NCBI GenBank assembly: GCA_023267045.1
Contig: JAHFOB010000009.1
Coordinates: forward strand, 1-34,857
Source: Candidatus Zambryskiibacteriota bacterium
GTDB lineage: Bacteria > Patescibacteriota > Minisyncoccia > Phycocordibacterales > DATDWN01
Length of the DNA stretch: 34,857 nucleotides
Reading direction: 5' to 3'
Shown in pieces: positions 2,638-34,818 of the stretch (positions within the stretch are counted from its first letter, which is position 1; each line of letters opens with the position of its first letter). Below the pieces are notes generated by a model, which was given only the letters and a program-made list of their open reading frames with translations, did not search any database and was not told the origin of the DNA. The position numbers and the translations under genes are program-made.

Positions 2638-2665
2638 TTGACATAAATTTTTGTATTGATATACT
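2638..2665 (+). promoter_or_regulatory. Sigma70-like promoter: TTGACA (2638-2643), 16-bp spacer, TATACT (2660-2665)
   Basis: Direct match to -35 consensus, 5/6 match to -10 consensus; followed 3-4 nt later by a structured region and then a terminator on the same strand. Confidence 0.7.
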
Positions 2666-2668
2666 CTA

Positions 2669-2757
2669 GTTGGCGTTTGGAGGGTTCGCCCTCTCACGGC
2701 TTCCAAGCCGTAGCCAAGCGCCAACAAAGTGTGTCACCTATAAGGTGGCATTTTTTG
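2669..2757 (+). ncRNA. Candidate uncharacterised structured small RNA (~88 nt)
   Basis: 12-bp closing stem GTTGGCGTTTGG (2669-2680)/CCAAGCGCCAAC (2714-2725, one G-U) enclosing hairpins GAGGG-TTCG-CCCTC and ACGGCT-TCCA-AGCCGT, then intrinsic terminator; promoter just upstream; no ORF. Confidence 0.6.
2732..2756 (+). terminator. Intrinsic terminator of the candidate small RNA
   Basis: TGTCACC-TATAA-GGTGGCA hairpin (7 bp) followed by TTTTTT at 2751-2756; no T-tract on the opposite strand. Confidence 0.75.
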
Positions 2758-2758
2758 T

Positions 2759-3043
2759 TTAATCTTCTTCTGGCACGCCATTGTGTAATATTCTGGTCAT
2801 TGTATTTTCATTCATCCCCCAAAATGGAATAATACTCCAAAAGAATTTCTCACCATTATCAATCTGCTTTGCAATCACTCTTACTCTATTTCTTTTTATA
2901 ACTGCAATGAATTCATAATAACTCACTGGCTTTAGAACAGTATCCGTTCTTCCTTTCATACGTATTCTCTCAAACTTTTTAGTTTCTAGAATACCTTCAT
3001 ATTTTTTATTATACTCTAGTTTCATCTTTATTTTTGTATTCAT
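2759..3043 (-). CDS. Hypothetical protein (94 aa), possibly a small nuclease-like or mobile-element protein
   Basis: Complete ORF; ...FERIRMKGRTDTVLKPVSYYEFIAVIKRNRVRVIAKQIDNGEKFFWSIIPFWG... Family not firmly recognised. Confidence 0.5.
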   Translation of the reverse strand: MNTKIKMKLEYNKKYEGILETKKFERIRMKGRTDTVLKPVSYYEFIAVIKRNRVRVIAKQIDNGEKFFWSIIPFWGMNENTMTRILHNGVPEED

Positions 3044-3069: not shown

Positions 3070-6000
3070 TTATTGTTGCGGTATTACCTCAACTGTTCTC
3101 GTAGCAAAACTCCAATTGCCTGCTCCGTCGACTGCACTGTAGACGATTGTGTGAGTAGTCGTTGCCTGCGGTGAGCTTGTCGAAACCGTTGTATCAATAG
3201 AAACTTCGCTTGCATCAGCACCATCAACGTTGAAATGTAAACCTAGATTGTTGTTTACTGCACCAGTCTCGTCTCTGTCTGCTACTGTTGCTCCCATGTC
3301 AGAATAAGTTGCTCCGATTTCTATTGTAGCTGGATTATTTCCTATAATCGTAATTTCAGGAGAAGTTATGTCTGTTGTCGTCGCATTCCCACCTCCTCCA
3401 TTCCCCAAGGGTGACCCTTGGGGAAGGTTTATACCACCGGCAAAAGCAAGTGATTGCCAAGCTGTTTCATCTGGCTGATACAAAGCCATCCAATCAAATG
3501 TTATGTCTTCTGTCGTCGGAGTTTTCATTGTAATAGTAAATCCATCGCCAGTTTTTTCAGTTACTCCGTAGTTTGAGTCTGGCAAACCTTGTGGAGTAAG
3601 AACGACTTTCGGAGCAGATGAGTATGGTTTATCAAATATTACTTTTGTAGAAACTGTGCCAGCTTTTATTGTTGCAGAACCTGCTGTATTTTTACTTGCC
3701 AAGATTATGCCTTTTATAGAAATATCTCCAGCTGATGTGACAGAAAGAACTTCGCCGTCGTTTGCCAAAACAGACAAAACAGGTTTGTTATCTGCTTTTA
3801 GATATTGTGAAGTGATTGCAAGAGTGCCGTCGTTTTTGATAAGCAGTCTGTCAGTGCCGTTCTGCTGAAGTTGTAAGATATTTCCACTTCCCTTCTGGTT
3901 TATTAGGAAAGTTGTGGCAGAAATTTGTGCGCCTGATCCAGACTCGGTTGTAGTTGCACTCGCAAGCTGTCCATCATCCTCACCCAAAACAAATGTGTTG
4001 TTTATTACTTTGTAACCAGTCTGAATGAAAGTTAGAACTGTTGTAATGGTGTTGGATTGCTCAGAACATGTCAACCTGCCAGGTTGACATGTTTCTGGTG
4101 AATCGACATCAGACGGCTCTAAGGCAACACCCAAAACATATCCACTTCGAGTTGCTTTCATGGCATAGCCGGGGTGCTCGGCTGATGTAGTCAAATAATC
4201 ACCGACAGCTATAGCCCCGTTTTCTAGAGAAACTTTTACTGGAACGCGACCAACTAGACCGACTATTTTTTTGAATTTATTTGAGTCATTTCGACCGCTT
4301 GGGTTATTACCTATGAAGGCTGCTTGGTTTGAAATTATACCCAAGATTTTATTGTCATAGGCTTTGTTCGATTTCATTATTGCGCTAACCAGTTTTGATT
4401 TTGCTGATAAACTATTTACTGTGGACGAAGCTTCTTCGTTTACTGCAGAAATATCAGAAGCTTGTGTTGTTGTAGAAAGTCCAGCGTCGGTTATGGCCGC
4501 CGTCATTAAAGCCGGATCCGTGATAGTTGCCACAACAATGTCACCAGTAGAGATAGTTGTATCAAATGTATCAAAATATTCTGCGTAGTCGGCACCAGAT
4601 GCGTTGAATGCTGCTTCACCGTAAACGTTACCGTCACCGCGAACTCGGAAGACAGCGTTTGTTCCATTTCTAGCGGAACCACTGAATGCAGTGATGAGGT
4701 TGTACCACGTTGTGTTTGTTGTCGTTGCTGATTCAACAGTCAAGATACCAGCACTACCTGCGGCAACGGCCGAAGTACATCCAGTTGCCTGACCGACACA
4801 CGGATATGGATTGGCATTTTTTATAAGAGCAGTTGGAGAATCACTATCAAAACTTATAACACGAAGTCCTGAAGCAGTAGATGAACCCATACTTGGGTTG
4901 TTACTTTCGCTAACAGAGAGGTCGCTTATAATATCAACCATTGCTACCCCAGATGTTGTCGTACCAAAAATAAATTTGGAGTTTAGTGTATCAACGTTAA
5001 ACAATGGAACCCCGGCACCACTTTGCAAACGGAATGCTGTTGTTGATGAAATATTTTGCAAGAATCCTCCATCGGCCATGAAAACAGCAAGTGGTGTTCC
5101 TCCTGATGAGAACAAGTTAAATAGATTTCCTGTCTGACTACCACCAGCAGTGACGTCTATTCCAGCGTTTGACGACGACTGTGTTGTGTCAACTGCAAAA
5201 ACTCTGTTGCCGGAACCGTCTTGCAAATCAAGAGCTGTGGTTGATGCAATATTTTGTAAAATACCTCCATACCAACCAATAGTAAGCGCGGCATTTCCTG
5301 TTGATGAGGAAACTTTAAACAAATCACCGATTGTTGCTCCGCCTTGTATGTGCATTAATGCTGTTGGATTTGCGATACCAATACCAACATTTCCAGAAGT
5401 ACCCAAAATAGTAAGTGCGGCGACAGATGTCGTTGCAGTTCCTGCAATAGTTGTTGTCCCAAGATAGAAGTTTCCTCCTGCGTTTCTGAATGCCCACTGT
5501 GCTACTCCTGCTCCTGCAGATAGGGAGAGTTGAGAAGCGGTAGATGAGAATGGATTCAAAAGATATGATGGCGTAGATGTCCCCAACCCTAGTCTGTTGT
5601 TGATTGCATCGAAGTAGAAACTAGATGTTGAAGATGCTTGAGTTAGTCTGTAACCGTCAGAGAATACTACACCACCGTTGTAGAAAGTTGTTGTTGCGGT
5701 GCCACCGTTAAGAAGAGTGTTTGAGAATGAACCACCACCAACACATATTCCGTTATATGCGTAACAACCTGTTGTAATATTAAATCCGACGTTTGATGTT
5801 GATGTTGCTTGACCAACGATGTTTAATCCAAGAATTGTTGTTGTACCAAATCCTGAACCTGAAATAGAAAGTGCTGATACTGATGTCGTTGCTGTTCCAT
5901 CTACTGTTGTCGTACCGAGATAGAAGTTTCCACCTGCGTTTCTGAATGCCCATTGTGCGATACCTGCACCAGCTGACAGTGATAGTTGTGAAGCTGATGA

Positions 6001-9000
6001 TGAGAATGGATTGAGTAGATATGAAGGAGTTGTTGTACCGAGACCTAGGTTGCCGAGGAAATATGAATTGTTTGTTGTTGTTGAGATGAGTGAACCTACT
6101 GTTAGCTGTGATGATGTGGCGATGAGTGAGAGACCGTCAGCAGATGATGTGATGATGGAGTTTAAAGCAAAAGATGTTACGTTTGTTCCTCCTTTTGAAA
6201 CTGGGACTGTACCACCGAGTGTTGAGAGTGACAGACATGTTGTACCAATAGCGTAACATCCACCGGTCAAACTAATGCCGACGTTAGATGTTGAAGTTGC
6301 AAGTCCCACAATATTCAAACCACGGATAGTTGTTGTACCGAAACCACTTCCAGAAATTTCCAAAGCAGAGATGGATGTTGTAGCATAGGCATCTGTTGAA
6401 GTGGCGATGTAGAAGTTGCCACCTTGTGATGCAAATGTCCAATGTTTTGCGTTTGCTCCAGCAGAGAAATCAGACAGAGCAAGTTGTGGTTTGAACCCAC
6501 CAGAAGATGAGGTGGTAGAAAGTTGCATCTGGAAACCCGGAGTTGAAGTACCAACACCGACATTGCCAACAGCATTTATTACAAACTTTGATGTTCCAGC
6601 ATTTTGCAAATCAATAAACTTTCCGTTGAATGACCCGCTGTTATTTCCAAAATTCATAACAAGTCCTGTGCCAGTGTAAGCAGAAGTTTCTTGATAAATA
6701 GAAACTAAGTTTGCAGAAGTTGCGTTGTCACTGTACGCACGAATTGCATTTCCAGATGTTGGCGCAGAGCCGTTGTCTAGATCAGCAAATATCGCAGCTG
6801 GGCTCGAGACTCCACCGGCTAGTCCGTCAGTTGTTCCTGTAACACCAAAAGTTTTTCCAAATCCTGCGATACCCGTGTTTGTTCCTGCTGTATTTGTTCC
6901 GGTCCATGCCTGAACTTCAAGTCCTCGCGTCGTGTTTGCTAGAGAAGTGCTATCGACGATTCGTATCAGTGTACCGATCTCACTACCAGCAAGACTCCCG
7001 TTAACTGTGTTTATAAATCTGTTCCCAAATTGTGTTCCACTTGAAGTGTTGTTGTTTAGAGTTAAATCTTGCAAGATGCCGGCAATCGCTCCCGGTCCTG
7101 CTCCAGACGAAGTAGCTGTTCCGGTAATTGCTAGTTTAGCGCCAGGACTTGTAGTTCCAATTCCTACATTACCACCATTACCAACAATAAAGTGTGTGGC
7201 ACTTGATGAACCGATGACAAACTCTGGAACATTTGAGCCGAGTGCGTTTGGATTGATTGAGAATAGCCCCCATGGTGTAGATGTTCCAACACCAATGTTT
7301 CCTGAACTTCCGATTATTGTCAGAGCTGATACTGATGTCGTTGCTGTTCCATCTACTGTTGTCGTACCGAGATAGAAGTTTCCACCTGCGTTTCGGAATG
7401 CCCACTGTGCGATACCTGCACCTGCAGAAAGAGCAAGTTGTGAAGCTGTTGATGAGAATGGATTGAGTAAATATGAAGGAGTTGTTGTGCCGAGACCTAG
7501 GTTGCCAAGGAAATATGAATTGTTTGTTGTTGTTGAGATGAGTGAACCTACTGTTAGCTGTGATGATGTGGCAATGAGTGAGAGACCGTCAGCAGATGAT
7601 GTGATGATGGAGTTTGGTGAAAATGAAGTTGCTCCGGTACCTCCATACAAAACTCCGATAGATGTTGTGGCAGAGACGACGCCGGCGTTTGCTTGGAGAG
7701 GGCCATTGAGAGATCCGACAGTTAAACCACCTTGTGCCGAAAGATTTCCGTTTATTGTAACTGCTCCATCAAACTGTGATGCGCCTGTACCGATTGATAT
7801 TGAATTCCAACGTGCACCAACTGAACCGAGTTTAAAGTTTGCGTTGTCATCAACGTATGGATTCATTGTGGCGTACCAACCAAGTTGGAAATTACCTGTC
7901 AGTAATGCGTAGGCAGAACTCAATCCTGTTTTACTGAACTGAATCCCCCAAGCTGTTGTGGCACCTTGGTCAGCAATAATGGTTGATTGATCACTACCAG
8001 AAGCTAGGACGTGCAATCTGCCGGTCGGTGATGCTGTGCCGATACCGACTTGTCCAGTTCCATCAACAAGAAAATGTGTACCTGTTGATGAACCGATTGC
8101 AAATTCTGGAATGTTTGATCCTGTATTACTTGTGTTAATTGACAATCTTGCCCACGGTGTTGATGTTCCTAAGCCTAGTTTTTGGTTCGTATCATCCCAG
8201 AAAAAAGATGATGTTGATGATGCTTGAGTTAATCTGTAGCCGTCAGAGAAGACGACACCACCGTTGTAGAAAGTTGTGGTCGCTGTACCGCCATTAAGAA
8301 GAGTGTTGGAGAATGATGAACCACCGATACATGTGCTGTTGTATGCGTAACAGCCAGTTGTGATGTTCCAACCTACGTTTGAAGTTGATGTTGCAAGTCC
8401 TAGAATATTCAAACCACGAATTGTTGTTGTGCCAAAACCACCGAGAGCTATTTCTAATGCTGATGTTGATGTTGTTGCTGTTCCTGCTACTGTTGTTGAT
8501 GAGATGTAGAAGTTTGTTCCATCGTTACGGAATACTGTTTGTGCAAATCCCGCTCCGGCTGAGAGTGCAAGTTGTGGTTGATTCGACGATGCAAGAGTTA
8601 GGTTGAATTGACTAAATGGAGAAGTTGTTCCGATACCAAGAGAGGCTGCAATGTAGGATTGAGCTAGAGCGCTTGAATATATTGCATAGTTAGTTGAAGA
8701 AGCCTCGACAGAGGTTATGGCAAGACCATAGTTATTATTTGCGCCGTAAGCAGTAATATTCACTCCATAGTTAGAATCCGCTGTGCCAGTTACAGCAGAC
8801 AAAAGACCGGTTTTTATTTTACTCCCAGCTCCAGTTAAATTATCTGAAAGGACGGACCATAGACCAGAAATGTTGGCATAATCGTTTGCAGCAACTGTGC
8901 CAGTAAATGAAGGGCTTGTTCGTAGGCCGGAAATAATAACACCATTAAAGCTGTTAGGAGTAGAACCAGATAATACTGGTGCAGAGTAAAAACCATACAA

Positions 9001-12000
9001 AGTAGGTGAACCGCCGGCTCCACTCAAAGTACTAGTTACTCTTGGAGATGAATCTATACCTTTAATTGTAGTTGGAGTATTAATTGACCCACTATCTGTA
9101 AAATTACTTAGGAGCCCTGTTAATGTTTTATTTGATTCTGAATTATTAAATTCAATTTGTAACTTTGCTATAGAACCTAATGTCGATGTCCCAATCCCTA
9201 CATTCCCCGCACCATTCACAACAAAGTGTGTCGCTGATGTTGAACCAATAACAAATTCTGGAACATTTGAACCAAGAGCGTTTGGATTGATTGAGAATAA
9301 TCCCCATGGTGTTGATGTCCCCAACCCCAATCTGTGGTTCGTATCATCCCAGAAAAAAGATGATGTTGATGATGCTTGAGTTAATCTGTAGCCGTCAGAG
9401 AAGACGACACCTCCGTTGTAGAAAGTTGTTGTTGCGGTGCCACCTGAAGATAGATTGTTAGTAAATACTGAGAGACAATTTCCTCCAATTGCATAACAAC
9501 CACCAGTGATGTTCCAACCTACGTTTGAGGTTGATGTTGCTTGACCGTTTGCTATTGTTAGACCTCTTACTGTTGTGGTGCCGAAACCTGACCCCGAGAT
9601 TTCAAGAGCTGAGATTGAAGTTGTTGCTGTTCCATCTACTGTTGTTGTTCCTAGATAGAAGTTACCTCCTGCGTTTCGGAATGTCCATTGTGCTACTCCT
9701 ACACCATCAGACAGTGAGAGTTGTGGAGCATTTGAGAAGTTTGTTGTTGATGAATACTGTGCTCCGAATATTGTTAGACCGAAGTTGTATCCTGCTGTTG
9801 TTGTTGAGAGGTGTGTTGTTGTTCCGATGCCGACTGGGCCGATGAAGCTTGCTCCTCCTTGGTAGATGTTGAGAGATGGGTTGATATTTACTTCTGATTT
9901 ACCGGAAGACATAGCTTGACCACTGTATGAAACGGCTGCAAAAATTCCATTTCCATATGCAACTGAAGTCCAATAAGTTGCTGGTGCTGCCTGTCGTGCC
10001 GTCCAATTAACACCATCTGGAGATGTCATTACCTTGTTTGTGCCAGATTCAGATGTTGCGACATAAAGTCCGTTTCCATATACAACTGAATTCCAATTAT
10101 TTGCTTCTGATGCTGTCTGAGCTGTCCATGTTACTCCATCTGGTGATGTCATGACACGATGTGAACCGTCATACGAAACTGCGACGAATTGGCCATGAGC
10201 ATATGTAACGGCAGTCCAATTATTTGCTTCTGATGCTGTCTGAGCTGTCCATGTTACTCCATCTGGAGATGTCATGACACGATGGGTACCGGTAATACCG
10301 ACTGCGACGAATTGGCCGTTACCATATGTAACTGCACGCCATGTGTTTGCTTCTGCTGAGGTTCTTGCTGTCCATGTCACTCCATCTGGAGATGTCATAA
10401 TTTCATGAGCACCATCAACTGCAACTGCAACGAATAATCCATTTCCGTATGTTACTGTCCACCAAGTATTTTGTTCGGCTGCGTTTTGGGCTGTCCAGTT
10501 AACTCCATCTGGAGATGTCATGACACGATGGGTACCACTTTGTGCAACTGCGACATAAAGACCATTACCATAAGTTACCGAATACCAGCTATTTGCTTCT
10601 GGCGCATTTCTTGCTGTCCAACTAACTCCATCTGGAGATGTCATGACACGATGAGTACCATTTGAACTAACTGCAATAAATTGACCACCACCATAAGTCA
10701 CTAGAATCCAATTGTTTGATTCTGCCGACGTTCTCGCCGTCCAACTTGTTCCCTTTGAAATAATATTACCGACAACTTCTAATTTCTCTCCTAGTGGTGT
10801 TGTTGTTCCAGGTGTCCCACCAAGACGAGCATTACCAAGAGAATCGATTATGAATGTGTTCCCAGTTGATGAACCGATAACAAATGCTGGTTCACCTGCA
10901 ATGTTGTTAATTGAAAGTTTTGCAAATGGTGTAGATGTACCGAGACCCAGTCTCTTGTTTGTTTCGTCCCAGAAGAAGTTTGAGGCACTAGCTGATTGTG
11001 TAAGTTTCGTTCCGTCAGAATAAACTACACCTCCGTTGTAGAAAGTTGTGGTTGCTGTACCACCGTAAAATAATCCGATAGATGTTGTGGCAGAGACGAC
11101 GCCGGCGTTTGCCTGCAAGGGGCCGTCAAACAACCCTGCCAAAGTCAAAACTCCTGCGTTAGAAAATGTTGAAGTTGCTGTTGCCCCAAAATATGCAGTG
11201 TAAGCAGAGAGAAGTGTTGTCGATGAGTTCCCACTTATTCTGACGTTGCCACCAAAGAAAGAATTTTTGCCGGGAGCGACTTCAAAAATATTTCCTGTAC
11301 CACCTTCTGTTGATGTAGCACTCCCACCCAAAACCAAAATGTTTGATGTGTTAGTTGGATAGATAATCATACTGTTGGTTGAAGTTGACCAAGCAGTCGC
11401 TCCACCACCACCCCCAGAAGTTAAGTCACTCTGCCAACTTGGGACCCCGCCGTTTAATTTCAAAACCAACCCGTCTGTTGTTGCAACTAATTTGGTTAGT
11501 GTAGTTGCACCTGATGCATACAAAATATCGCCTGTTGTGTATGTTGTTTGACCTGTCCCCCCTTGATTTGCCGCAAGTGTTCCAGAAATTGTAGAAAGTG
11601 TTGTCGTGGCAACCCATGTTGGTACTCCATTAACCAGTGCAAGAACTTGGCTATCTGTTCCAGCACTTGTTGTAGCGATTGCGCCTGTTCCATTTCCGAG
11701 TAAAACTGTGTTGGCAACAAAAGAAGTATTTCCTGTGCCTCCGTTTGCTACTGTGTTTGTGAAAGATCCATTACCGATACAGTTTCCTGAAATAGCAAAA
11801 CACCCTGTAGTGATATTGTAACCAACATTTGATGTTGATGTTGCTTGACCGATAATATTTAATCCTCTGATTGTGGTTGTTCCGAAACCTGATCCCGAGA
11901 TTTCAAGAGCAGAGATTGATGTTGTTGCTGTTCCTGCTACTGTTGTAGTTCCTAGATAGAAATCACCTCCTGCGTTTCTGAAAGCCCATTGTGATATACC

Positions 12001-15000
12001 TGCTCCAGCTGAAAGGGAGAGTTGAGCGCCTGTGGTTGAAGCGACTGTAAAGTTATAATAAGGGGTTGTTGTTCCAATTCCAGTTAGACCATTTACAACC
12101 AAACCACTTGTAGGGGCTGTTTGACCAGAAGAATACCCGATCGATGAATTACCGACTACTGCAAGTTTTGCTCCTGGTGCTGTGTCACCTATACCAAAGT
12201 TACCAGCCGAACTAAATCTCATCCTCTCAGCTAACGACCCAGCAATACTTGTGTAGAATAATAGACTTGAAGCATAAGTGGCATTATCGTGGGTATTAAT
12301 TACAGCTTGAATATTTACAGCATCTTTAAATGCTGTAGCCCCAGCACCAGTTGAATCACTTCGGAATGAAAGACTCTCACCATTGTTATCTGTTGTGTCT
12401 GTGTTCTGCATTGCAATAGTTGACGGTGTACCAGAATTTTTTACAACGACATGCAAAGTTCTTTGTGGGTTATCTGTTCCAATACCAACAAATCCACTGC
12501 TACCCAATATCGACAATGCTGATACGCTAGTTGTTGCTGTTCCTTCTACTGTTGTTGTACCGAGGTAGAAGTTTCCTCCTGCGTTTCTGAAAGCCCATTG
12601 TGATATACCTGCTCCAGCTGAAAGTGCGAGTTGAGAGGCACCGCTTGAATATACATCTAAAAGATATGCTGCTGTAGTTGTCCCAACGGCTACATTTCCT
12701 AGAAAATAAGACGTTGCTGATGTTGTTGCGATTATGTTCCCTACTGTTAGTTGTGTACCTGTCGCGATTATATTTCCAGATGAATTTGTTGTGACGATAG
12801 AATTAATCGGCAGAGTTGCTAGTGATGTCAGTGGTAAATTAGAAACTGTAAGTGCTCCAGAAGAATTTGTAAGCCCTGTACCGAGTAAGTTGTTAAATGA
12901 TTGGCCACCTATTACAAGATTTGTTGTTGATGCTGTGACAAATGACGAGTAGTTAGTTGATGATGAATAGTTGAATGTTTGAAGTGCTGTAAAAGTATTT
13001 GATGTATATGTTTTTGGAATTGTTGTAGATGAATTGATATATGAGTTTGTTGTGTTATTTAAAAATGTTGTATCAAGAGTAAGAACGTTGGAAGTATTTA
13101 CCAAACCACTTCCTAACAAATTATTAAATGATGAACCACCAATAACTAAGTTTGTTGTTGACGCCGTAAGAAAAGATGAATATATAGTAGATGAAGAATA
13201 ATTAAATGTTTGAAGTGCTGTCCAGATGTTTGGATCTGCTAGATTTAGTGTTACATTTCCTGCCGAGTATGAAAGTCCGCCAGAAAATGTCGTCGTGGCA
13301 ACCCATGTTGGTACTCCGCCGACAAGTGCTAGAACTTGGCCGTTTGTTCCGGCAGATGTTGTGGCGATTGCTCCTGTTCCGTTTCCGAGCAAAACTGTGT
13401 TAGCAACAAATGACGTGTTGCCTGTTCCTCCATTTGCGACTGTGTTTGAAAATGACCCACTACCAACACAAACTCCGTTTACTGCGAAACACCCGCTTAG
13501 AAGATTTATACCGTTTGAAAATGTTGATGAAGAAATAGTTCCTGTAACATAAAGTGTGTTTGTTGAAAGTCCGCCAGAAAATGTAGATGTTGCCGTTGTT
13601 GATGTTGCAGAAAAATATGATGCAACGATTTGCCCGACAACAGAAAGCGGAGCGTATGGTGAAGTTGTACCGATACCAACATTACCTGAGAAATATCCTA
13701 TTAAAGTATTTGGGTCATACCAAAATTTTCCTGTTGTACTAGAAGTTCCACCAATTACCAAAATATCATTTGTATTATTTGAATAGTTAAAAAGCACTCC
13801 TGGAACTCCAGATGTCGTTGTGGAAAATGTCCCACCAGCAGATCCTCCACCCGAACCATTTCCTATTCCTAGACATACTCCATTTACAGAAACACATCCA
13901 CCAGTCACCGCAATACCACCAGAGAAAGTTGATGTTGATGTGTTTGTGACAATAAGATTTGTGACTGTTGTTGTGCCGAGACTAGCATTGTCAGCAGTAA
14001 TATTTGAAACATTTATTGATGTGCCTGTGATTGACCCCCCTGTGATAGTTGGGTTTGTGATTGTTGTCCCACTTAAACTATTTATTATCTGGCTCTGTGC
14101 TATTTCTTGATAAACATTGGTAATATTCCCACCACTACCAGTTGATAGAGAAGAAAACTGTGCCTGTATTTTATTATTTAATTCTTGAAGTCTAGCTTCG
14201 ACATCTGCTTTTGTAATATCAGATGCCACTGGTCTCTCTATTATTCTTTCAACTACGTTTGTTGTGTTTGTAACGTTTGTATTTTTTGGAGCATTTGGAA
14301 TATTTTTTGTTTGTTCAGCTTTTGTAGCGACATAAACCGTGTTGACTATTGCTGGTGATTTTTTAAAGAAATTTACAATCGGAGAATATATTGATCTATC
14401 GAACCAGTTGTTGACTGTGTCATAAACAACAACACCAGAATGATCAACTGGATTTAGTTTTTCAGAAACTGCCGTTGCAACAGAAGCAGTTAGATTTTTT
14501 GTAGAATCTTTTACGTAAAGATTTGCATATGATGCCCCACCGATAGAATCAGAAATGAAAGCAAAAATTCTAGCGTGAGTATTTGAAATAGAATCGACAA
14601 TAAACATTGCTGTTTTATCTACAAATTTCTTTTCACCAAGAGAAACAGACTGCAAACTATTTACAATATAGGATGGAGGATTTTGTCCAAGTAGGGTTAG
14701 TTGGTTATAAAAAGCGTATGTTGTTTTCTGTAAAAAATTAGATAGTCTTTCATAACCTCCACCAAGTCCACTTGAATAAAAATCAACCAAAGCCGATAGG
14801 TTGTTATAAGCGACTATTGGAGACTTTGAGATAGTCTTTGAAAGATCGCCAAAAGTCAGTCCTTTAGTCTTAAGGTCTTCCTTTATCAAATTCGTCATAT
14901 TTGGCAAGCCAGAAACTGTCTCTAAAAATCTAGACGAGTTGTCTTTGATTGTAATAAGTCCGATAGTCAGTAGAAGAGTCAAAGCTAAACCTAATAGTTT

Positions 15001-15438
15001 TTTTGATATATTCAATTCAGGCACAAACAGCCCCTCATGAATAATTTGCCTATACTTTGGCCAATGTACTTTCTTCCATTCACTAGCTATATAAATATTA
15101 GACGTATGCGCATTTTTAGAAATTACTGGCTCAACCTTTGATGAAAAAAAGTTATTGTCCTTAGAAGGAGTTACTGTAGATTTCCGAGGAGAGACAACAC
15201 TAGTTATATTTTTATTAATCTGAGTTGATACAAAATTAGTCTTATATGACTGACTTGGTAAATTAATATAGTTGAGCAAAGAGTTCTCCTCTACATACCA
15301 AATTTTCCCGATTCTTTTACAATCAACTTTATTTCCTCTACAAAGTTGGCCAATATAATCTTTTGAGTAGCCAGTTAGAGTACTAGCATCTTTAGCTGAA
15401 ATATATTTTCTGTTGTCAAAAAATATTGCAGAATTCAT
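3070..15438 (-). CDS. Giant (~4,122 aa) HTH-TM-repeat surface protein: N-terminal helix-turn-helix, single TM segment, phage tail-fibre/adhesin-like repeats, internal 7-fold repeat, DYAEYF...GLVGRVPVKV module and C-terminal DUF5011/Ig-like domain
   Basis: Single ORF. N-term KYISAKDASTLTGYSKDYIGQLCRGNKVDCKRIGKIWYVEENSLLNYI; TM ~LLGLALTLLLTIGLITI; repeated GIGTTSP/LGLGTSTP and AGAGIAQWAFRNAGGNFYLGTTTVDGTATTS units; C-term SPEITIIGNNPATIEIGATYSDMGATV...YSAVDGAGNWSFATRTVEV. The ORF track begins at a TTG (15444); the first ATG is at 15438. Confidence 0.9.
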   Translation of the reverse strand: MNSAIFFDNRKYISAKDASTLTGYSKDYIGQLCRGNKVDCKRIGKIWYVEENSLLNYINLPSQSYKTNFVSTQINKNITSVVSPRKSTVTPSKDNNFFSSKVEPVISKNAHTSNIYIASEWKKVHWPKYRQIIHEGLFVPELNISKKLLGLALTLLLTIGLITIKDNSSRFLETVSGLPNMTNLIKEDLKTKGLTFGDLSKTISKSPIVAYNNLSALVDFYSSGLGGGYERLSNFLQKTTYAFYNQLTLLGQNPPSYIVNSLQSVSLGEKKFVDKTAMFIVDSISNTHARIFAFISDSIGGASYANLYVKDSTKNLTASVATAVSEKLNPVDHSGVVVYDTVNNWFDRSIYSPIVNFFKKSPAIVNTVYVATKAEQTKNIPNAPKNTNVTNTTNVVERIIERPVASDITKADVEARLQELNNKIQAQFSSLSTGSGGNITNVYQEIAQSQIINSLSGTTITNPTITGGSITGTSINVSNITADNASLGTTTVTNLIVTNTSTSTFSGGIAVTGGCVSVNGVCLGIGNGSGGGSAGGTFSTTTSGVPGVLFNYSNNTNDILVIGGTSSTTGKFWYDPNTLIGYFSGNVGIGTTSPYAPLSVVGQIVASYFSATSTTATSTFSGGLSTNTLYVTGTISSSTFSNGINLLSGCFAVNGVCVGSGSFSNTVANGGTGNTSFVANTVLLGNGTGAIATTSAGTNGQVLALVGGVPTWVATTTFSGGLSYSAGNVTLNLADPNIWTALQTFNYSSSTIYSSFLTASTTNLVIGGSSFNNLLGSGLVNTSNVLTLDTTFLNNTTNSYINSSTTIPKTYTSNTFTALQTFNYSSSTNYSSFVTASTTNLVIGGQSFNNLLGTGLTNSSGALTVSNLPLTSLATLPINSIVTTNSSGNIIATGTQLTVGNIIATTSATSYFLGNVAVGTTTAAYLLDVYSSGASQLALSAGAGISQWAFRNAGGNFYLGTTTVEGTATTSVSALSILGSSGFVGIGTDNPQRTLHVVVKNSGTPSTIAMQNTDTTDNNGESLSFRSDSTGAGATAFKDAVNIQAVINTHDNATYASSLLFYTSIAGSLAERMRFSSAGNFGIGDTAPGAKLAVVGNSSIGYSSGQTAPTSGLVVNGLTGIGTTTPYYNFTVASTTGAQLSLSAGAGISQWAFRNAGGDFYLGTTTVAGTATTSISALEISGSGFGTTTIRGLNIIGQATSTSNVGYNITTGCFAISGNCIGNGSFTNTVANGGTGNTSFVANTVLLGNGTGAIATTSAGTDSQVLALVNGVPTWVATTTLSTISGTLAANQGGTGQTTYTTGDILYASGATTLTKLVATTDGLVLKLNGGVPSWQSDLTSGGGGGATAWSTSTNSMIIYPTNTSNILVLGGSATSTEGGTGNIFEVAPGKNSFFGGNVRISGNSSTTLLSAYTAYFGATATSTFSNAGVLTLAGLFDGPLQANAGVVSATTSIGLFYGGTATTTFYNGGVVYSDGTKLTQSASASNFFWDETNKRLGLGTSTPFAKLSINNIAGEPAFVIGSSTGNTFIIDSLGNARLGGTPGTTTPLGEKLEVVGNIISKGTSWTARTSAESNNWILVTYGGGQFIAVSSNGTHRVMTSPDGVSWTARNAPEANSWYSVTYGNGLYVAVAQSGTHRVMTSPDGVNWTAQNAAEQNTWWTVTYGNGLFVAVAVDGAHEIMTSPDGVTWTARTSAEANTWRAVTYGNGQFVAVGITGTHRVMTSPDGVTWTAQTASEANNWTAVTYAHGQFVAVSYDGSHRVMTSPDGVTWTAQTASEANNWNSVVYGNGLYVATSESGTNKVMTSPDGVNWTARQAAPATYWTSVAYGNGIFAAVSYSGQAMSSGKSEVNINPSLNIYQGGASFIGPVGIGTTTHLSTTTAGYNFGLTIFGAQYSSTTNFSNAPQLSLSDGVGVAQWTFRNAGGNFYLGTTTVDGTATTSISALEISGSGFGTTTVRGLTIANGQATSTSNVGWNITGGCYAIGGNCLSVFTNNLSSGGTATTTFYNGGVVFSDGYRLTQASSTSSFFWDDTNHRLGLGTSTPWGLFSINPNALGSNVPEFVIGSTSATHFVVNGAGNVGIGTSTLGSIAKLQIEFNNSESNKTLTGLLSNFTDSGSINTPTTIKGIDSSPRVTSTLSGAGGSPTLYGFYSAPVLSGSTPNSFNGVIISGLRTSPSFTGTVAANDYANISGLWSVLSDNLTGAGSKIKTGLLSAVTGTADSNYGVNITAYGANNNYGLAITSVEASSTNYAIYSSALAQSYIAASLGIGTTSPFSQFNLTLASSNQPQLALSAGAGFAQTVFRNDGTNFYISSTTVAGTATTSTSALEIALGGFGTTTIRGLNILGLATSTSNVGWNITTGCYAYNSTCIGGSSFSNTLLNGGTATTTFYNGGVVFSDGYRLTQASSTSSFFWDDTNQKLGLGTSTPWARLSINTSNTGSNIPEFAIGSSTGTHFLVDGTGQVGIGTASPTGRLHVLASGSDQSTIIADQGATTAWGIQFSKTGLSSAYALLTGNFQLGWYATMNPYVDDNANFKLGSVGARWNSISIGTGASQFDGAVTINGNLSAQGGLTVGSLNGPLQANAGVVSATTSIGVLYGGTGATSFSPNSIITSSADGLSLIATSSQLTVGSLISTTTNNSYFLGNLGLGTTTPSYLLNPFSSTASQLALSAGAGIAQWAFRNAGGNFYLGTTTVDGTATTSVSALTIIGSSGNIGVGTSTPWGLFSINPNALGSNVPEFVIGSSSATHFIVGNGGNVGIGTTSPGAKLAITGTATSSGAGPGAIAGILQDLTLNNNTSSGTQFGNRFINTVNGSLAGSEIGTLIRIVDSTSLANTTRGLEVQAWTGTNTAGTNTGIAGFGKTFGVTGTTDGLAGGVSSPAAIFADLDNGSAPTSGNAIRAYSDNATSANLVSIYQETSAYTGTGLVMNFGNNSGSFNGKFIDLQNAGTSKFVINAVGNVGVGTSTPGFQMQLSTTSSSGGFKPQLALSDFSAGANAKHWTFASQGGNFYIATSTDAYATTSISALEISGSGFGTTTIRGLNIVGLATSTSNVGISLTGGCYAIGTTCLSLSTLGGTVPVSKGGTNVTSFALNSIITSSADGLSLIATSSQLTVGSLISTTTNNSYFLGNLGLGTTTPSYLLNPFSSSASQLSLSAGAGIAQWAFRNAGGNFYLGTTTVDGTATTSVSALSISGSGFGTTTILGLNIVGQATSTSNVGFNITTGCYAYNGICVGGGSFSNTLLNGGTATTTFYNGGVVFSDGYRLTQASSTSSFYFDAINNRLGLGTSTPSYLLNPFSSTASQLSLSAGAGVAQWAFRNAGGNFYLGTTTIAGTATTSVAALTILGTSGNVGIGIANPTALMHIQGGATIGDLFKVSSSTGNAALTIGWYGGILQNIASTTALDLQDGSGNRVFAVDTTQSSSNAGIDVTAGGSQTGNLFNLFSSGGTPLAVFMADGGFLQNISSTTAFRLQSGAGVPLFNVDTLNSKFIFGTTTSGVAMVDIISDLSVSESNNPSMGSSTASGLRVISFDSDSPTALIKNANPYPCVGQATGCTSAVAAGSAGILTVESATTTNTTWYNLITAFSGSARNGTNAVFRVRGDGNVYGEAAFNASGADYAEYFDTFDTTISTGDIVVATITDPALMTAAITDAGLSTTTQASDISAVNEEASSTVNSLSAKSKLVSAIMKSNKAYDNKILGIISNQAAFIGNNPSGRNDSNKFKKIVGLVGRVPVKVSLENGAIAVGDYLTTSAEHPGYAMKATRSGYVLGVALEPSDVDSPETCQPGRLTCSEQSNTITTVLTFIQTGYKVINNTFVLGEDDGQLASATTTESGSGAQISATTFLINQKGSGNILQLQQNGTDRLLIKNDGTLAITSQYLKADNKPVLSVLANDGEVLSVTSAGDISIKGIILASKNTAGSATIKAGTVSTKVIFDKPYSSAPKVVLTPQGLPDSNYGVTEKTGDGFTITMKTPTTEDITFDWMALYQPDETAWQSLAFAGGINLPQGSPLGNGGGGNATTTDITSPEITIIGNNPATIEIGATYSDMGATVADRDETGAVNNNLGLHFNVDGADASEVSIDTTVSTSSPQATTTHTIVYSAVDGAGNWSFATRTVEVIPQQ
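3401..3425. repeat. In-frame palindrome within the giant CDS (11-bp arms, TGA loop)
   Basis: TTCCCCAAGGG-TGA-CCCTTGGGGAA; its 21-nt core is identical to the core of the hairpin at 18939-18977. Confidence 0.8.
4065..4093. repeat. In-frame palindrome within the giant CDS (14-bp perfect arms, 1-nt centre)
   Basis: AACATGTCAACCTG-C-CAGGTTGACATGTT; encodes the atypical Cys-containing stretch ETCQPGRLTC. Confidence 0.85.
5881..6163 (-). repeat. 283-bp direct repeat inside the giant CDS, copy 1 (copy 2 at 7333-7615)
   Basis: Near-identical DNA of equal length (tgatgtcgttgctgttccatctactgttgtcgtaccgagatagaagtttccacctgcgttt...gtcagcagatgatgtgatgatggagttt). Confidence 0.85.
7333..7615 (-). repeat. 283-bp direct repeat inside the giant CDS, copy 2
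   Basis: See 5881-6163. Confidence 0.85.
9905..10746 (-). repeat. Seven ~41-aa (123-nt) tandem repeats within the giant protein, putative seven-bladed beta-propeller
   Basis: Seven units of [S/N/T]WTA[R/Q]xxxExNxWxxVTYGNGxFVAVxxxGTHRVMTSPDGV; the seventh is degenerate at its end. Confidence 0.85.
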
Positions 15439-15506
15439 TAACAAAATTATAACGTCAAAAGCTATTAAAAATATGAAAAATGTGTGGATAACAAAGGATT
15501 TCTTGG

Positions 15507-31011: not shown

Positions 31012-34000
31012 CTATTTCCCACTCTGTTCTAAATCCAGTTTAGCTTTTTTGATTTGCAAAATTTGCGATGGGTCAGATGTGATTATTTGGTCCTCTGTGT
31101 ATGAAGCAATTATTTTTACAGCTACGTGCTTTAGTCCAGCGAAAAAGATTCCCTCTCCAACGTCGGATTCCAAAAGCAAATATTTTTCTTCGTCAGTTAG
31201 ATTAAATGTTTGCTGGAGTTTATCGATAGATGTTGGTGATTGCTTGAGCAAAATCTGAATAGATGAGTTTGTAATAATCGGCACACCATAGGGTGATTTC
31301 ATAAAGTCATCAACGTCTTGGGTGATTGTAGCAAGTCCAAGGAAATATTTTCGGCCTCTTTTGGCAAGAGAAAGTAGAAACGACGCTGTGTCTTCTGATT
31401 TCATCATCCACCATGCCTCGTCTATAACCAGCAGTCGCTTTTTCAGTTTTTTCCTGATCAAGTTCCATATATAGTGCATGACAATATACATAGCGATAGG
31501 TTTGAGCTCGTCCTCCATATCTCGCAGTGAAAAGACAATAAACTTTTTGTTTATATCAACGTTTGATGGTTTGTTTATAAAACCTGCCCATGTTCCACGA
31601 GTGTATTTTGTCAGTCTCTGTGCCAGCGAGTCTCCACCCTCCATTCCCGTCAGAACAAGCTCAAAGTCGGACATAAGTGGTGGTTCTACATTTTCAAAGT
31701 TTCCATCGGCTGTGATGTCTTTCAAGGCGTATGTTTCTGTTATCGCTCGGTCAATGATAGCGTCTTCTTCTGGAGAAAGTCCTCCCATCATGATACGGAA
31801 AAGTCCTACTAGGTTTATGATATTTGATCGCAAGACATTTGAAAAAGACTCGCCTTCTCCAGGGGTTGGCAGTTCAAACGGGTTTATATGATGCTCGGAG
31901 TTTAGTGAAATATTAAAATATTTACCACCGACAGCTTCTGCCAGGTACTCGTACTCTTTTTCTGGGTCAATAACGATGACATCTGTATCAAACATCAGGG
32001 TTCGAAGAATTTCCAGTTTTGTTGCGTAGGAATTGTGGACAAACATTCCATTAGAACCGGCCAGAAAGACTTCATTGTCAACCGTTAAATCGTAGACATA
32101 TTTTTCTTTTATATTTTGAGTTTTCTTTATAGCCACAATCGGATCCCAAAAAAGATCGGCAGAAGCAAGTCGTTCCAAATTTTTGAGAATTTCTTCAACC
32201 CGTGGCATTTTAGATGAAATATTCTGGTACGTTTCTTTAATAAAAAGTGCCGCTTCTCGAAGCATGTTATATGAAGTGCGATCTGGTAAATTTTTACGGA
32301 ATGCCACGCCCAAACTCGGATTCATATTTGTTATAGAGGAGTTAAAATCTATAAAACCAGAGTGGATTCGCACAAGAGATTGTTCTATTGTGCCAGCTTC
32401 TTTTTCACCAAGTGTTACTCGAGCCAGAGTCAAGACGTTTGCAAGACCAACCTCTCCCTTATTTCCTTTCATCCATGCCCAACTTGAGCCAAGTTCTTGC
32501 CATAATTTCTGATTGTATTCTCGATTTGATTTACCGAGTTTTATTAGGTCTAGAATATTTGGGAGTGAGCCGAGATCGTTCATTGCTCCCGCAATATTTT
32601 TAAAATGTTCAACTCGTTCTCGAACGCTTGCAATAAGTTTAATCAGTTCTTTTGGTGATGGGTTATAAACTCCGCGTGAAAGAGGTGAAATGTTTGCAAT
32701 ATTGTGAAGCTGACTACCGAAGTGTTCTCGCAGTTCACTAATCAGTGGCGCAATAGTGGGGATAATATTGACATTTGTGTTATAGGAGACAGACAGGGCT
32801 AACTTAAGGGATTGATTTTTTCTGATTGTGACAAAACCAATTTGGCGTGAAAATTTTTCTATATTTTCTTGTCCGGAGATAGTCAATTTCCAAAAAACCT
32901 TTTTTCGTTTGGCGCCAGAATACTTCTTCATTTGTTTGTGGACTCGCGTTATTATGCCAAAGAAATATAACAAATAAGATAGACTGGAAATAAGCTTTTT
33001 AGATTTGGAAAGAGCGGTAACGGTATTTTTTTCCATTCCGCCATCTCCTTCAAAATAAGCTCGTAAAAAAGCGGAAGTTATATTTTTTGGAGCGTTGAAT
33101 AGAACAGATGGCGCCACTTTTTCTCCAGATTTTTTTATTCCGACTAAGATGTGAATCATTTTTATAAATGGTCTGTCAGCTGTGGCAAGAGCATTTTTTA
33201 TTGTATAAAAATTAACGCCTATATCTTGAAAACATTTTTTAATATCACACAAAACCTCCGGATCAATATTGGAAATTATGACAGCACTACTAGTTATAGT
33301 TCCCTCGGCTATAATATAGCCAAGTAAACGAGCAAATGGTTCTGTCACTTTAAACCAAGCTGGCAAGACGCCCTTGCCAGAGGCACTGACAACTTTCAAT
33401 TCACGACAAGTTTTTGGATTAACGGCAATATTTAAGCTGGAGGCAATTTTCAAAAAATAATGAACCGGTATTCGTGAGCCATCTTTATATTTATACAAAT
33501 ATCGGTCTAAATTTTTATGGAGTGGTGTTTTTTTGAGAAGAGCGTAATTTTTTTGGATAATTTTTTCGGTGCCCGTAAGATACATTTGTTTTTTAGGGTT
33601 AGCAAAAAGATCGAGCAAATTAAGAGTGTTTTCGACGATTTTAGGCGCCTCAATCTGTCGTGGCAGAGGAATATATTCTCCTATAGTCACATCAGTGCTT
33701 TTAGCAACCACAATCTCGCCTTCTCGCAGAACTAACATATTGTGATCACCAGTAGTGGTTATTTGTCGACCACTTTGTGTTTCAAATTGATAAAAAGTCT
33801 CTGGAGCCACCTTACGAGCCGCCACAGAAACAGGACTCCATTCCCCCTTCATCTCTTTATTGTAAGTAAAAACTTTTAGACCTGGGTCTATTACTCCTTC
33901 AAGTTCATGATCTATTTTTACCAGCCCAAACTTTTTGATTTTTTGCTCAACCAATTCTTTTATATTTACTAACTTTGTTTCATGACCGTCTTTAACCAAG

Positions 34001-34818
34001 ACCGATTCAGAGCCAAGAATGCTTTTCCCGGCACCAGACTTGGCAAAAGTAATCGAGTTATAGTTTTCAAGTGAAAATCTATCAAACAGAACAAGCGACG
34101 AGTTGTGGCGGTTTATTCCATACAAAATTCCCTTGTCAGATGTTAGATCAAAAGAAACAAAAGGAAAAAGAGATGAAAGTGGTGATGAGTTTAGTTTGCT
34201 ATAGACTTGCAGACCGTCTGTACCCAGAGGAATAGTTGTTTTGAAGGCTTGTTCTTGCTGGAAAAGAGCCGGTTTTACATAAACCAGTTTTGACTCAAGG
34301 ATAGACTTGATTTCTGACTCTATTTTGTCTAGCTCGTTCTCTGAGTCGGCGTATATTGTGATATAGAGGCCTACATCAAACAGTTTTTCTTGGGCTTGCT
34401 GGAGCTGGTCACGGAGGTTTTCCAAGTCCTGATAGGCCGTATCGAGCATCGGGTTTCGTACTAGTCCCTTGGCCTCTCGAGCGTTTATCTGACTCTGAAC
34501 CTCTGCCACTTTCTTTTGAAATGTTCGCAATACTCCAGCTGTTTCAATAGGTGTGACGAAAATAGCGATATCAAATATTTTGTCTAGATTTATGATTGGG
34601 GCAAACCAATTTTCTGTAAGAAATCTCGGGTATGAAATAACAAAAAAGCTTCGCAGTATTTTTTCGCCAAGATTTATGCCTTTTGGAGTTACTTTCAAAG
34701 CGCTCGGTGCAATAATATCTTTCAGTTCAAGTGCACCAGAATCATATATTTCCTGTGGCAATATCGTAGATATTTGAGGTTCTTCGTTTTTCTTTTTTAA
34801 AAAATCAAATAGTGCCAT
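31012..34818 (-). CDS. virB4: VirB4/TraC-type conjugation/T4SS ATPase interrupted by an intein
   Basis: Extein: NYNSITFAKSGAGK|SYATKLEILRTLMFDTDVIVIDPEKEYEYL, LLVIDEAWWMMKSEDTASFLLSLAKRGRKYFLGLATITQDVDDF, ITNSSIQILLKQ. 1268 aa total, ~604 aa after intein removal. Confidence 0.93.
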   Translation of the reverse strand: MALFDFLKKKNEEPQISTILPQEIYDSGALELKDIIAPSALKVTPKGINLGEKILRSFFVISYPRFLTENWFAPIINLDKIFDIAIFVTPIETAGVLRTFQKKVAEVQSQINAREAKGLVRNPMLDTAYQDLENLRDQLQQAQEKLFDVGLYITIYADSENELDKIESEIKSILESKLVYVKPALFQQEQAFKTTIPLGTDGLQVYSKLNSSPLSSLFPFVSFDLTSDKGILYGINRHNSSLVLFDRFSLENYNSITFAKSGAGKSILGSESVLVKDGHETKLVNIKELVEQKIKKFGLVKIDHELEGVIDPGLKVFTYNKEMKGEWSPVSVAARKVAPETFYQFETQSGRQITTTGDHNMLVLREGEIVVAKSTDVTIGEYIPLPRQIEAPKIVENTLNLLDLFANPKKQMYLTGTEKIIQKNYALLKKTPLHKNLDRYLYKYKDGSRIPVHYFLKIASSLNIAVNPKTCRELKVVSASGKGVLPAWFKVTEPFARLLGYIIAEGTITSSAVIISNIDPEVLCDIKKCFQDIGVNFYTIKNALATADRPFIKMIHILVGIKKSGEKVAPSVLFNAPKNITSAFLRAYFEGDGGMEKNTVTALSKSKKLISSLSYLLYFFGIITRVHKQMKKYSGAKRKKVFWKLTISGQENIEKFSRQIGFVTIRKNQSLKLALSVSYNTNVNIIPTIAPLISELREHFGSQLHNIANISPLSRGVYNPSPKELIKLIASVRERVEHFKNIAGAMNDLGSLPNILDLIKLGKSNREYNQKLWQELGSSWAWMKGNKGEVGLANVLTLARVTLGEKEAGTIEQSLVRIHSGFIDFNSSITNMNPSLGVAFRKNLPDRTSYNMLREAALFIKETYQNISSKMPRVEEILKNLERLASADLFWDPIVAIKKTQNIKEKYVYDLTVDNEVFLAGSNGMFVHNSYATKLEILRTLMFDTDVIVIDPEKEYEYLAEAVGGKYFNISLNSEHHINPFELPTPGEGESFSNVLRSNIINLVGLFRIMMGGLSPEEDAIIDRAITETYALKDITADGNFENVEPPLMSDFELVLTGMEGGDSLAQRLTKYTRGTWAGFINKPSNVDINKKFIVFSLRDMEDELKPIAMYIVMHYIWNLIRKKLKKRLLVIDEAWWMMKSEDTASFLLSLAKRGRKYFLGLATITQDVDDFMKSPYGVPIITNSSIQILLKQSPTSIDKLQQTFNLTDEEKYLLLESDVGEGIFFAGLKHVAVKIIASYTEDQIITSDPSQILQIKKAKLDLEQSGK
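32032..34023 (-). other. Intein (~664 aa) with LAGLIDADG homing endonuclease, inserted in Walker A of VirB4
   Basis: Starts S-ILGSESVLVKDG after GAGK; block B-like TTTGDHNMLV; LAGLIDADG-type LLGYIIAEGT and FLRAYFEGDGG; ends VYDLTVDNEVFLAGSNGMFVHN followed by S. Confidence 0.92.

Follow-up and report, generated by a model that had tools for sequence, protein, structure and literature searches.

A conserved three-way-junction RNA convergent with a predicted BECR/LPD3-like ribonuclease gene in Patescibacteria: a candidate RNA-neutralised toxin module

Contig JAHFOB010000009.1 of a Candidatus Zambryskiibacteriota bacterium (assembly GCA_023267045.1) was analyzed over its whole length of 34,857 nucleotides (nt), here called the window, whose positions serve as coordinates throughout. 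On its forward strand lies a candidate small RNA gene with a promoter, a three-way-junction fold and an intrinsic terminator, which meets tail to tail a truncated gene of a protein family here named X (Table 1). A sequence-only reading had taken the RNA for an orphan, independent gene. This part of the reading had to be given up: the gene on the right runs towards the RNA and ends with its stop codon directly at the T-run, which makes the two a convergent pair. Both the two-gene module and the truncation of its protein half in the window had been overlooked.

Table 1. Features of the RNA locus and the adjoining X gene (window positions).
Feature	Position	Strand	Remarks
-35 element TTGACA	2638-2643	+	TTGAC-like -35 kept in most homologues
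-10 element TATACT	2660-2665	+	16-nt spacer to the -35 element
Predicted transcript, ~85 nt (core and terminator)	2672-2756	+	start inferred from the -10 element
Type-A three-way-junction RNA core	2672-2725	+	model R1, 100 distinct homologues
P1	2672-2680/2714-2722	+	9 pairs downstream of the likely start
P2, GGG(UUCG)CCC	2682-2691 (2682-2684/2689-2691)	+	
P3	2696-2701/2706-2711	+	
Intrinsic terminator	2731-2756 (stem 2731-2751, T6 2751-2756)	+	tail adjoins the X stop codon
Truncated X, 94 amino acids (aa)	2759-3043	-	matches residues 73-158 of the 158-aa L076 protein with 73% identity

The promoter agrees with the consensus at 11 of 12 positions; it was found as the sequence-only reading had described it, as were the second inner hairpin (P3) and the terminator with its T6 run. 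The absence of a coding sequence was likewise borne out, no open reading frame (ORF) of ≥ 60 aa being present at the RNA locus, and the GC-rich island is real (GC content 0.64 in the core, 0.19 and 0.35 in the flanks). Two details were revised. The closing stem had been given 12 bp, and 12 pairs can indeed be drawn (2669-2680 with 2714-2725); since transcription would start about 7 nt after the -10 element (~2672) and thus inside this stem, the transcribed stem would have ~9 bp and the RNA ~85 nt, and the outer three pairs may be absent from the transcript. Hairpin P2 does carry the UUCG loop claimed for it, but is closed by a G-C pair and is not of the classical C(UUCG)G type, and its loop differs among relatives (UUCG, CUUG, UUUG, UCCG and others). 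P3 is flanked by two strongly conserved segments, CUCUCACGG and CYGUARCC. When region 2665-2770 was folded as RNA, an energy of -45.2 kcal/mol was obtained (z = -6.35) and none of 200 shuffled sequences was as stable.

At the gathering thresholds of Rfam, no family matched the window RNA, and relaxing the search up to E = 10 gave chance-level matches only. No tRNA or tmRNA was found at the locus. An Rfam search of the loci of this RNA type (type A) and of the second type described below (type B) returned no match except a neighbouring tRNA. The suggestion that the fold falls outside the known RNA classes thus stood up. In the host genome (750 kb, 94.6% complete) the element occurs once.

A blastn search against 99 relatives returned four clear homologues in other genera, all of which have promoter, core and terminator. 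The first five RNA sequences were aligned with MAFFT without structural information; this alignment, in which compensatory changes were already visible, was the basis of covariance model R1. Within the order, 33 of 397 genomes contain R1 RNAs at E up to 0.1 (about five of these hits are weak), and within the class 26 of 384 do; the occurrence is scattered, with sometimes two or three copies in one genome. Among 100 distinct copies, compensatory changes on both sides were present at 10 of 16 pairs, amounting to 175 cells compared to 54 ± 14 after shuffling. In the alignment of 102 copies (100 distinct), 99.6% of the cells were paired versus 32-56% when the structure was slid, and the covariation score was 0.386 versus 0.222 ± 0.007 shuffled and at most 0.130 slid, all in an alignment which was fitted to the R1 structure and is biased towards it. 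RNAalifold applied to the same alignment gave the same three helices plus two further pairs. With ~100 homologues, compensatory changes in P1, P2 and P3 and no Rfam family, the earlier proposal of an undescribed small RNA is upheld. The junction segments are almost invariant, whereas the P3 loop varies in length, with loops shared within subclades. G-U pairs are common (one P3 pair is G-U in 55/100 copies, for example), which would be expected if RNA, and not DNA, is what folds.

The expression signals were scored in 103 distinct copies. Best promoter scores were mostly 8-11/12 compared to a shuffled mean of 7.3, and the best -10 element ends exactly 4 nt before the modelled RNA in 63 homologues. 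Terminator-like sequences follow 92 of the RNAs versus 5 of 103 shuffled ones. As all three elements are retained in relatives, the predicted combination of promoter, fold and terminator is far beyond chance. Separately, the motif TGTGGAYAA, the complement of a DnaA-box-like TTRTCCACA, was present ≤ 80 nt upstream of 22/103 RNAs compared to 0.35% of background 80-nt windows. It lies mostly at -45 or -36 from the RNA (30-50 nt upstream in L021-L075 and L076-L152) and might belong to promoters of these genomes in general. In L051 (2231-3007, G107:C37), an X gene is located between two type-A RNAs, one convergent and the other divergent with its own promoter.

In the window and in three of its homologous loci (L002, L003 and L004), the RNA faces the 3' end of an X gene, and in most R1 loci the terminator ends at the X stop codon, ~30 nt from the RNA core. 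In the reverse test, loci were chosen by protein alone: named genomes were searched with 31 aligned X proteins, and the 80 best loci were retained. These belong mostly to Nomurabacteria, Taylorbacteria, Yanofskybacteria, Uhrbacteria, Magasanikbacteria, Peregrinibacteria and other Patescibacteria; a few records labelled Nitrospira, Rhizomicrobium and Verrucomicrobia are probably mis-binned contigs, judging by their placement in the tree. An R1 RNA was present at 74 of the 80 loci (E 2e-4 or better), always on the opposite strand and just past the X stop. Three more (L153, L154 and L155) carry the second RNA type, R2, at the same place with 47-81 bits, so that 77/80 loci have one of the two RNA types, always convergent. 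Among the remaining three, the sequence breaks off 25 nt (L092) or 56 nt (L123) beyond the stop codon, L123 showing a cut-off partial R1 match, and L143 matches X only partly. The median gap between X stop and RNA core was 32 nt (60 loci measured). This near-obligate pairing bears on the idea that the RNA is an independent regulatory small RNA, which would be near X by descent only. Some copies without X are well conserved, as such an RNA would be (e.g. L022 at 76.8 bits). However, the 77 paired loci are spread across many candidate phyla with otherwise unrelated neighbourhoods, and neither chance nor inertia would hold a pair so tightly amid changing surroundings. An independent role is therefore considered very improbable.

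When the order was searched with 49 X proteins, X or X-like genes were found in 54/397 genomes. The more divergent X genes lack R1; their 3' flanks hold another three-way-junction RNA in the same layout, with helices GUGCCUG/CAGGCAC (P1), GGGC-GCAA/GUCA-GCCC (hairpin) and UUCGGCU/AGCUGAA. The covariance model of this RNA, R2 (14 sequences), has compensatory changes at 8 of 17 pairs and matches in 45/397 genomes of the order. RNA type changes with the distance of the protein: X genes at E < 1e-50 have R1 in 21/21 cases; at 1e-50 to 1e-25, there are 23 with R2, 3 with R1 and 2 with none; at 1e-25 to 1e-15, 9 have R2 and 8 none; and weaker X genes have R2 in 6 and none in 17 cases. Several of the cases counted as none have further three-way-junction RNAs with promoter and terminator, judged by eye (L166 at 8088, L228, L230, L233 and L241). 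In a tree of 114 proteins, type-A-associated X proteins form one clade (100/100) and RNA-less X-like proteins another (96/89), and the four RNA labels require 8 changes compared to 38 when shuffled. RNA type thus follows protein clade. A specific RNA-protein pair would be expected to behave in this way; part of the agreement stems from the joint inheritance of two linked genes. X is absent from L205 (G282:C7:43416-43545), where one strand carries two R2-type RNAs at a distance of ~75 nt.

The tail-to-tail layout could also mean that the RNA controls the expression of X by base-pairing with its mRNA or by convergent transcription, in a type I-like manner, and read-through of the terminator would indeed be antisense to X. 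The genes meet only at the terminator, however, which leaves the RNA core without antisense overlap with X. Duplexes predicted with the translation start of X were hardly different between cognate (-31.7 kcal/mol) and non-cognate (-30.4 kcal/mol) pairs, and both the conserved junction and the match of RNA type to protein clade would be left unexplained. Antisense control of X is unlikely and is given little weight here.

RNAs without X sometimes face other toxin-like genes, namely genes encoding NYN-domain (L022, L218 and L225), Fic (L035 and L068), zeta (L039) or PemK/MazF (L220) proteins; in L223, an NYN-domain gene is next to an X-less RNA, but on the strand of the RNA. Other X-less RNAs face ordinary genes, and the adjacency to toxin-like genes was counted without a background rate. 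Two orphan R2 RNAs (L221 and L224) are found beside another small uncharacterised protein family (IPRRLNKIKKLMREYY.. / ISRRIARLKKLVRAYF..), whose gene converges with the RNA in L221 and shares its strand in L224; the L221 protein has no Pfam match. The toxin-like neighbours would suit a conserved fold which acts as DNA, i.e., an attC-like recombination or insertion site at the 3' side of mobile toxin cassettes. The constant position at the 3' end of the gene, the tandem copies in L205 and the second copy near X in L051 point in the same direction. A DNA site would not be expected to keep promoter and terminator along with the fold, to be rich in G-U pairs, or, if it were a general recombination site, to follow the protein clade. 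Furthermore, no integron-type cassette arrays were seen in the loci read, the attC core consensus being judged by eye only. We regard a DNA element as improbable, marginally more so than antisense control.

X is a family of proteins of ~158 aa. Its AlphaFold2 model (predicted local distance difference test, pLDDT, 89.8; predicted template modelling score, pTM, 0.84) consists of helices at 39-46, 56-65 and 68-75, followed by a four-strand meander (81-93, 96-113, 116-125 and 131-137). His44, Arg54, Gln59, Gln80, Ser134 and an FWS-I-P-W motif are invariant in 49 X sequences, and Arg62 is nearly so. According to Iyer and colleagues (PMC5512222), BECR endoribonucleases combine an N-terminal helix, which often contains a His, with four or five strands, of which strand 4 often contains a Ser or Thr, and LPD3 is found beside PBECR domains. 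In the X model, His44 is located in a helix and Ser134 in strand 4, and these two are the likely catalytic residues. The Pfam family LPD3 (PF18798) was matched weakly by 24 of 49 X members at E up to 1 (best 3.7e-7); one member reached 13.3 bits, compared to the curated cut-off of 27. Apart from this weak LPD3 signal, nothing was found for X in Pfam, NCBIfam, PADLOC and PHROGs, and there was no ToxN match in Pfam, NCBIfam or PADLOC. Searching the PDB by sequence gave nothing significant. Neither X nor the RNA motif was found in viral contigs. From topology and residue placement, X is predicted to be a BECR/LPD3-like, metal-independent endoribonuclease.

The surroundings of X were compared in 78 loci. 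No constant protein neighbour, a protein antitoxin included, was found (at most 9/78 loci), which leaves the RNA as the only candidate partner of X. The commonest neighbour cluster after X itself is HsdM (9/78), and X starts 0-54 nt after hsdM in seven loci; HsdS is encoded downstream of X in five and a RhuM-family gene upstream in five. Close relatives of X occur in different candidate phyla, the distribution of the module is patchy, and some genomes have several copies, all of which is expected of a transferred module. In the window, the N-terminal half of X with the invariant His44 is missing while promoter, RNA and terminator are intact; the module has thus probably decayed here, with the RNA left behind. 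A repetitive adhesin-like ORF of 4124 aa (3070-15444, - strand) lies immediately upstream of the truncated X.

Tight pairing and co-divergence are silent on whether the RNA switches X on or off. The RNA could therefore be a working part of an RNA-protein effector (guide, activator or scaffold, e.g. of a defence ribonucleoprotein), or X could process the RNA; the almost invariant junction segments and the restriction-modification context would fit this as well. A guide-like variable segment is lacking, however, as the P3 loop, although variable in length, is common within subclades. RNAs also persist without X, and in the window an intact RNA accompanies a truncated X, whereas a cofactor should be lost together with its enzyme. 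Such an effector is rated as rather unlikely, albeit the most credible of the alternatives.

The explanation we favor, with moderate confidence, is a new RNA-neutralised toxin module of Patescibacteria (candidate phyla radiation, CPR), which follows type III-like logic without belonging to type III. A strong, constitutive-looking promoter would produce the ~85-nt RNA, a rigid three-way junction with a conserved single-stranded junction segment. The folded RNA would bind X and keep it inactive as a constitutive inhibitor. X, presumed to be a toxic RNase, would be freed only once the RNA is no longer made or has been destroyed, e.g. by loss of the locus or by phage takeover; release under stress or infection and a role in defence are likewise presumed. 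Whether the pair stands for a large new class, i.e., BECR/LPD3-like RNases with their own convergent three-way-junction RNAs in several co-evolving types, partly forming a defence layer in restriction-modification loci, we put at even chances.

Several observations weigh against a neutralised toxin. RNA copies without an adjacent X are frequent (9/33 for R1 and 19/57 for R2); they fit a retained antitoxin, but also an RNA with a function of its own. Likewise, the intact RNA beside a truncated X would look like an antitoxin outliving its toxin, and just as much like an RNA with a second function. A clade of X-like proteins of ~120-131 aa has no convergent RNA (L170, L171, L173, L174, L239 and L240). 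Foldseek found no significant match of X to any solved BECR nuclease or other structure in the PDB, so the BECR assignment rests on topology and residue placement, and X is an RNase by prediction; among viral models, LPD3 proteins come closest, with E-values of 0.07-0.3. Finally, the gene order of type III systems, with the RNA upstream in one operon and a terminator between RNA and toxin, is not that of the module, whose RNA is encoded on the opposite strand downstream of X with its own promoter.

Two further genes of the window were recorded on the - strand. A PF05635 protein of the four-helix-bundle 23S rRNA intervening-sequence type is encoded at 2173-2562, divergent from the RNA. A large VirB4-like ATPase is encoded at 31012-34818; its Walker-A motif is seemingly split by an intein-like insert (GAGKS...HNS), judged by eye.

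No description of the RNA-X pair was found in the open literature searched on CPR RNAs and RNA antitoxins or in Rfam, Pfam, NCBIfam and PADLOC; its novelty means absence from these sources and is not proof that it was never seen before. Two other systems were considered and dropped: TIGR-Tas, as the tandem guide arrays in the available part of its description are absent here, and a RAYT/REP element, as a single IS200-like gene is found near L002 only and is not general. PrrC and RloC are anticodon nucleases linked to type I restriction loci, and PrrC is silenced by the restriction complex. X resembles them in that a predicted RNase gene is found inside hsd operons (after hsdM in seven loci), whereas its protein is unrelated to PrrC, most X loci are outside hsd operons and X is paired with an RNA. 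In type I toxin-antitoxin systems, the antitoxin is an antisense RNA of the toxin mRNA. The module shares with these systems a small RNA gene facing a toxin gene, but no antisense complementarity was found here and X is not a small hydrophobic peptide.

On the protein side, the nearest relatives are the PBECR/LPD3 (PF18798) domains of phage and plasmid polyvalent proteins. The weak profile match and the closest viral structures both point to LPD3, and X shares the layout of His in a helix and Ser in strand 4 given for PBECR in the available part of PMC5512222, which describes no RNA partner for LPD3. Unlike LPD3, X stands alone as a chromosomal protein and has an RNA of its own.

Known type III systems consist of one operon with an upstream tandem-repeat pseudoknot RNA and a ToxN-family toxin (PMC5086642). 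ToxIN, CptIN and TenpIN share with the module a noncoding RNA paired one-to-one with a predicted endoribonuclease, a Rho-independent terminator, co-diverging RNA and protein types and a patchy distribution. In place of the tandem repeat array of type III, nearly all loci have a single copy of the fold, and in place of the ToxN/AbiQ-type toxin there is the LPD3/BECR-like X, which has no ToxN match in Pfam, NCBIfam or PADLOC and no PDB match by sequence or fold. The type III repeat folds as an H-type pseudoknot; the consensus here is a nested three-way junction, in which no pseudoknot search was made. As the module departs from type III in operon order, tandem repeats and toxin, it is not filed there. 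To our knowledge, RNA-neutralised protein toxins have so far been restricted essentially to one toxin fold, repeat pseudoknot RNAs and one operon layout. If our interpretation is correct, the module would represent another, independent solution, which differs in toxin fold, RNA fold and gene order, and a recognisable RNA-based conflict module for an uncultured lineage with reduced genomes. Its type-A and type-B pairs lend themselves directly to testing RNA-protein specificity, and two RNA family models and one protein family are added which annotation pipelines currently miss.
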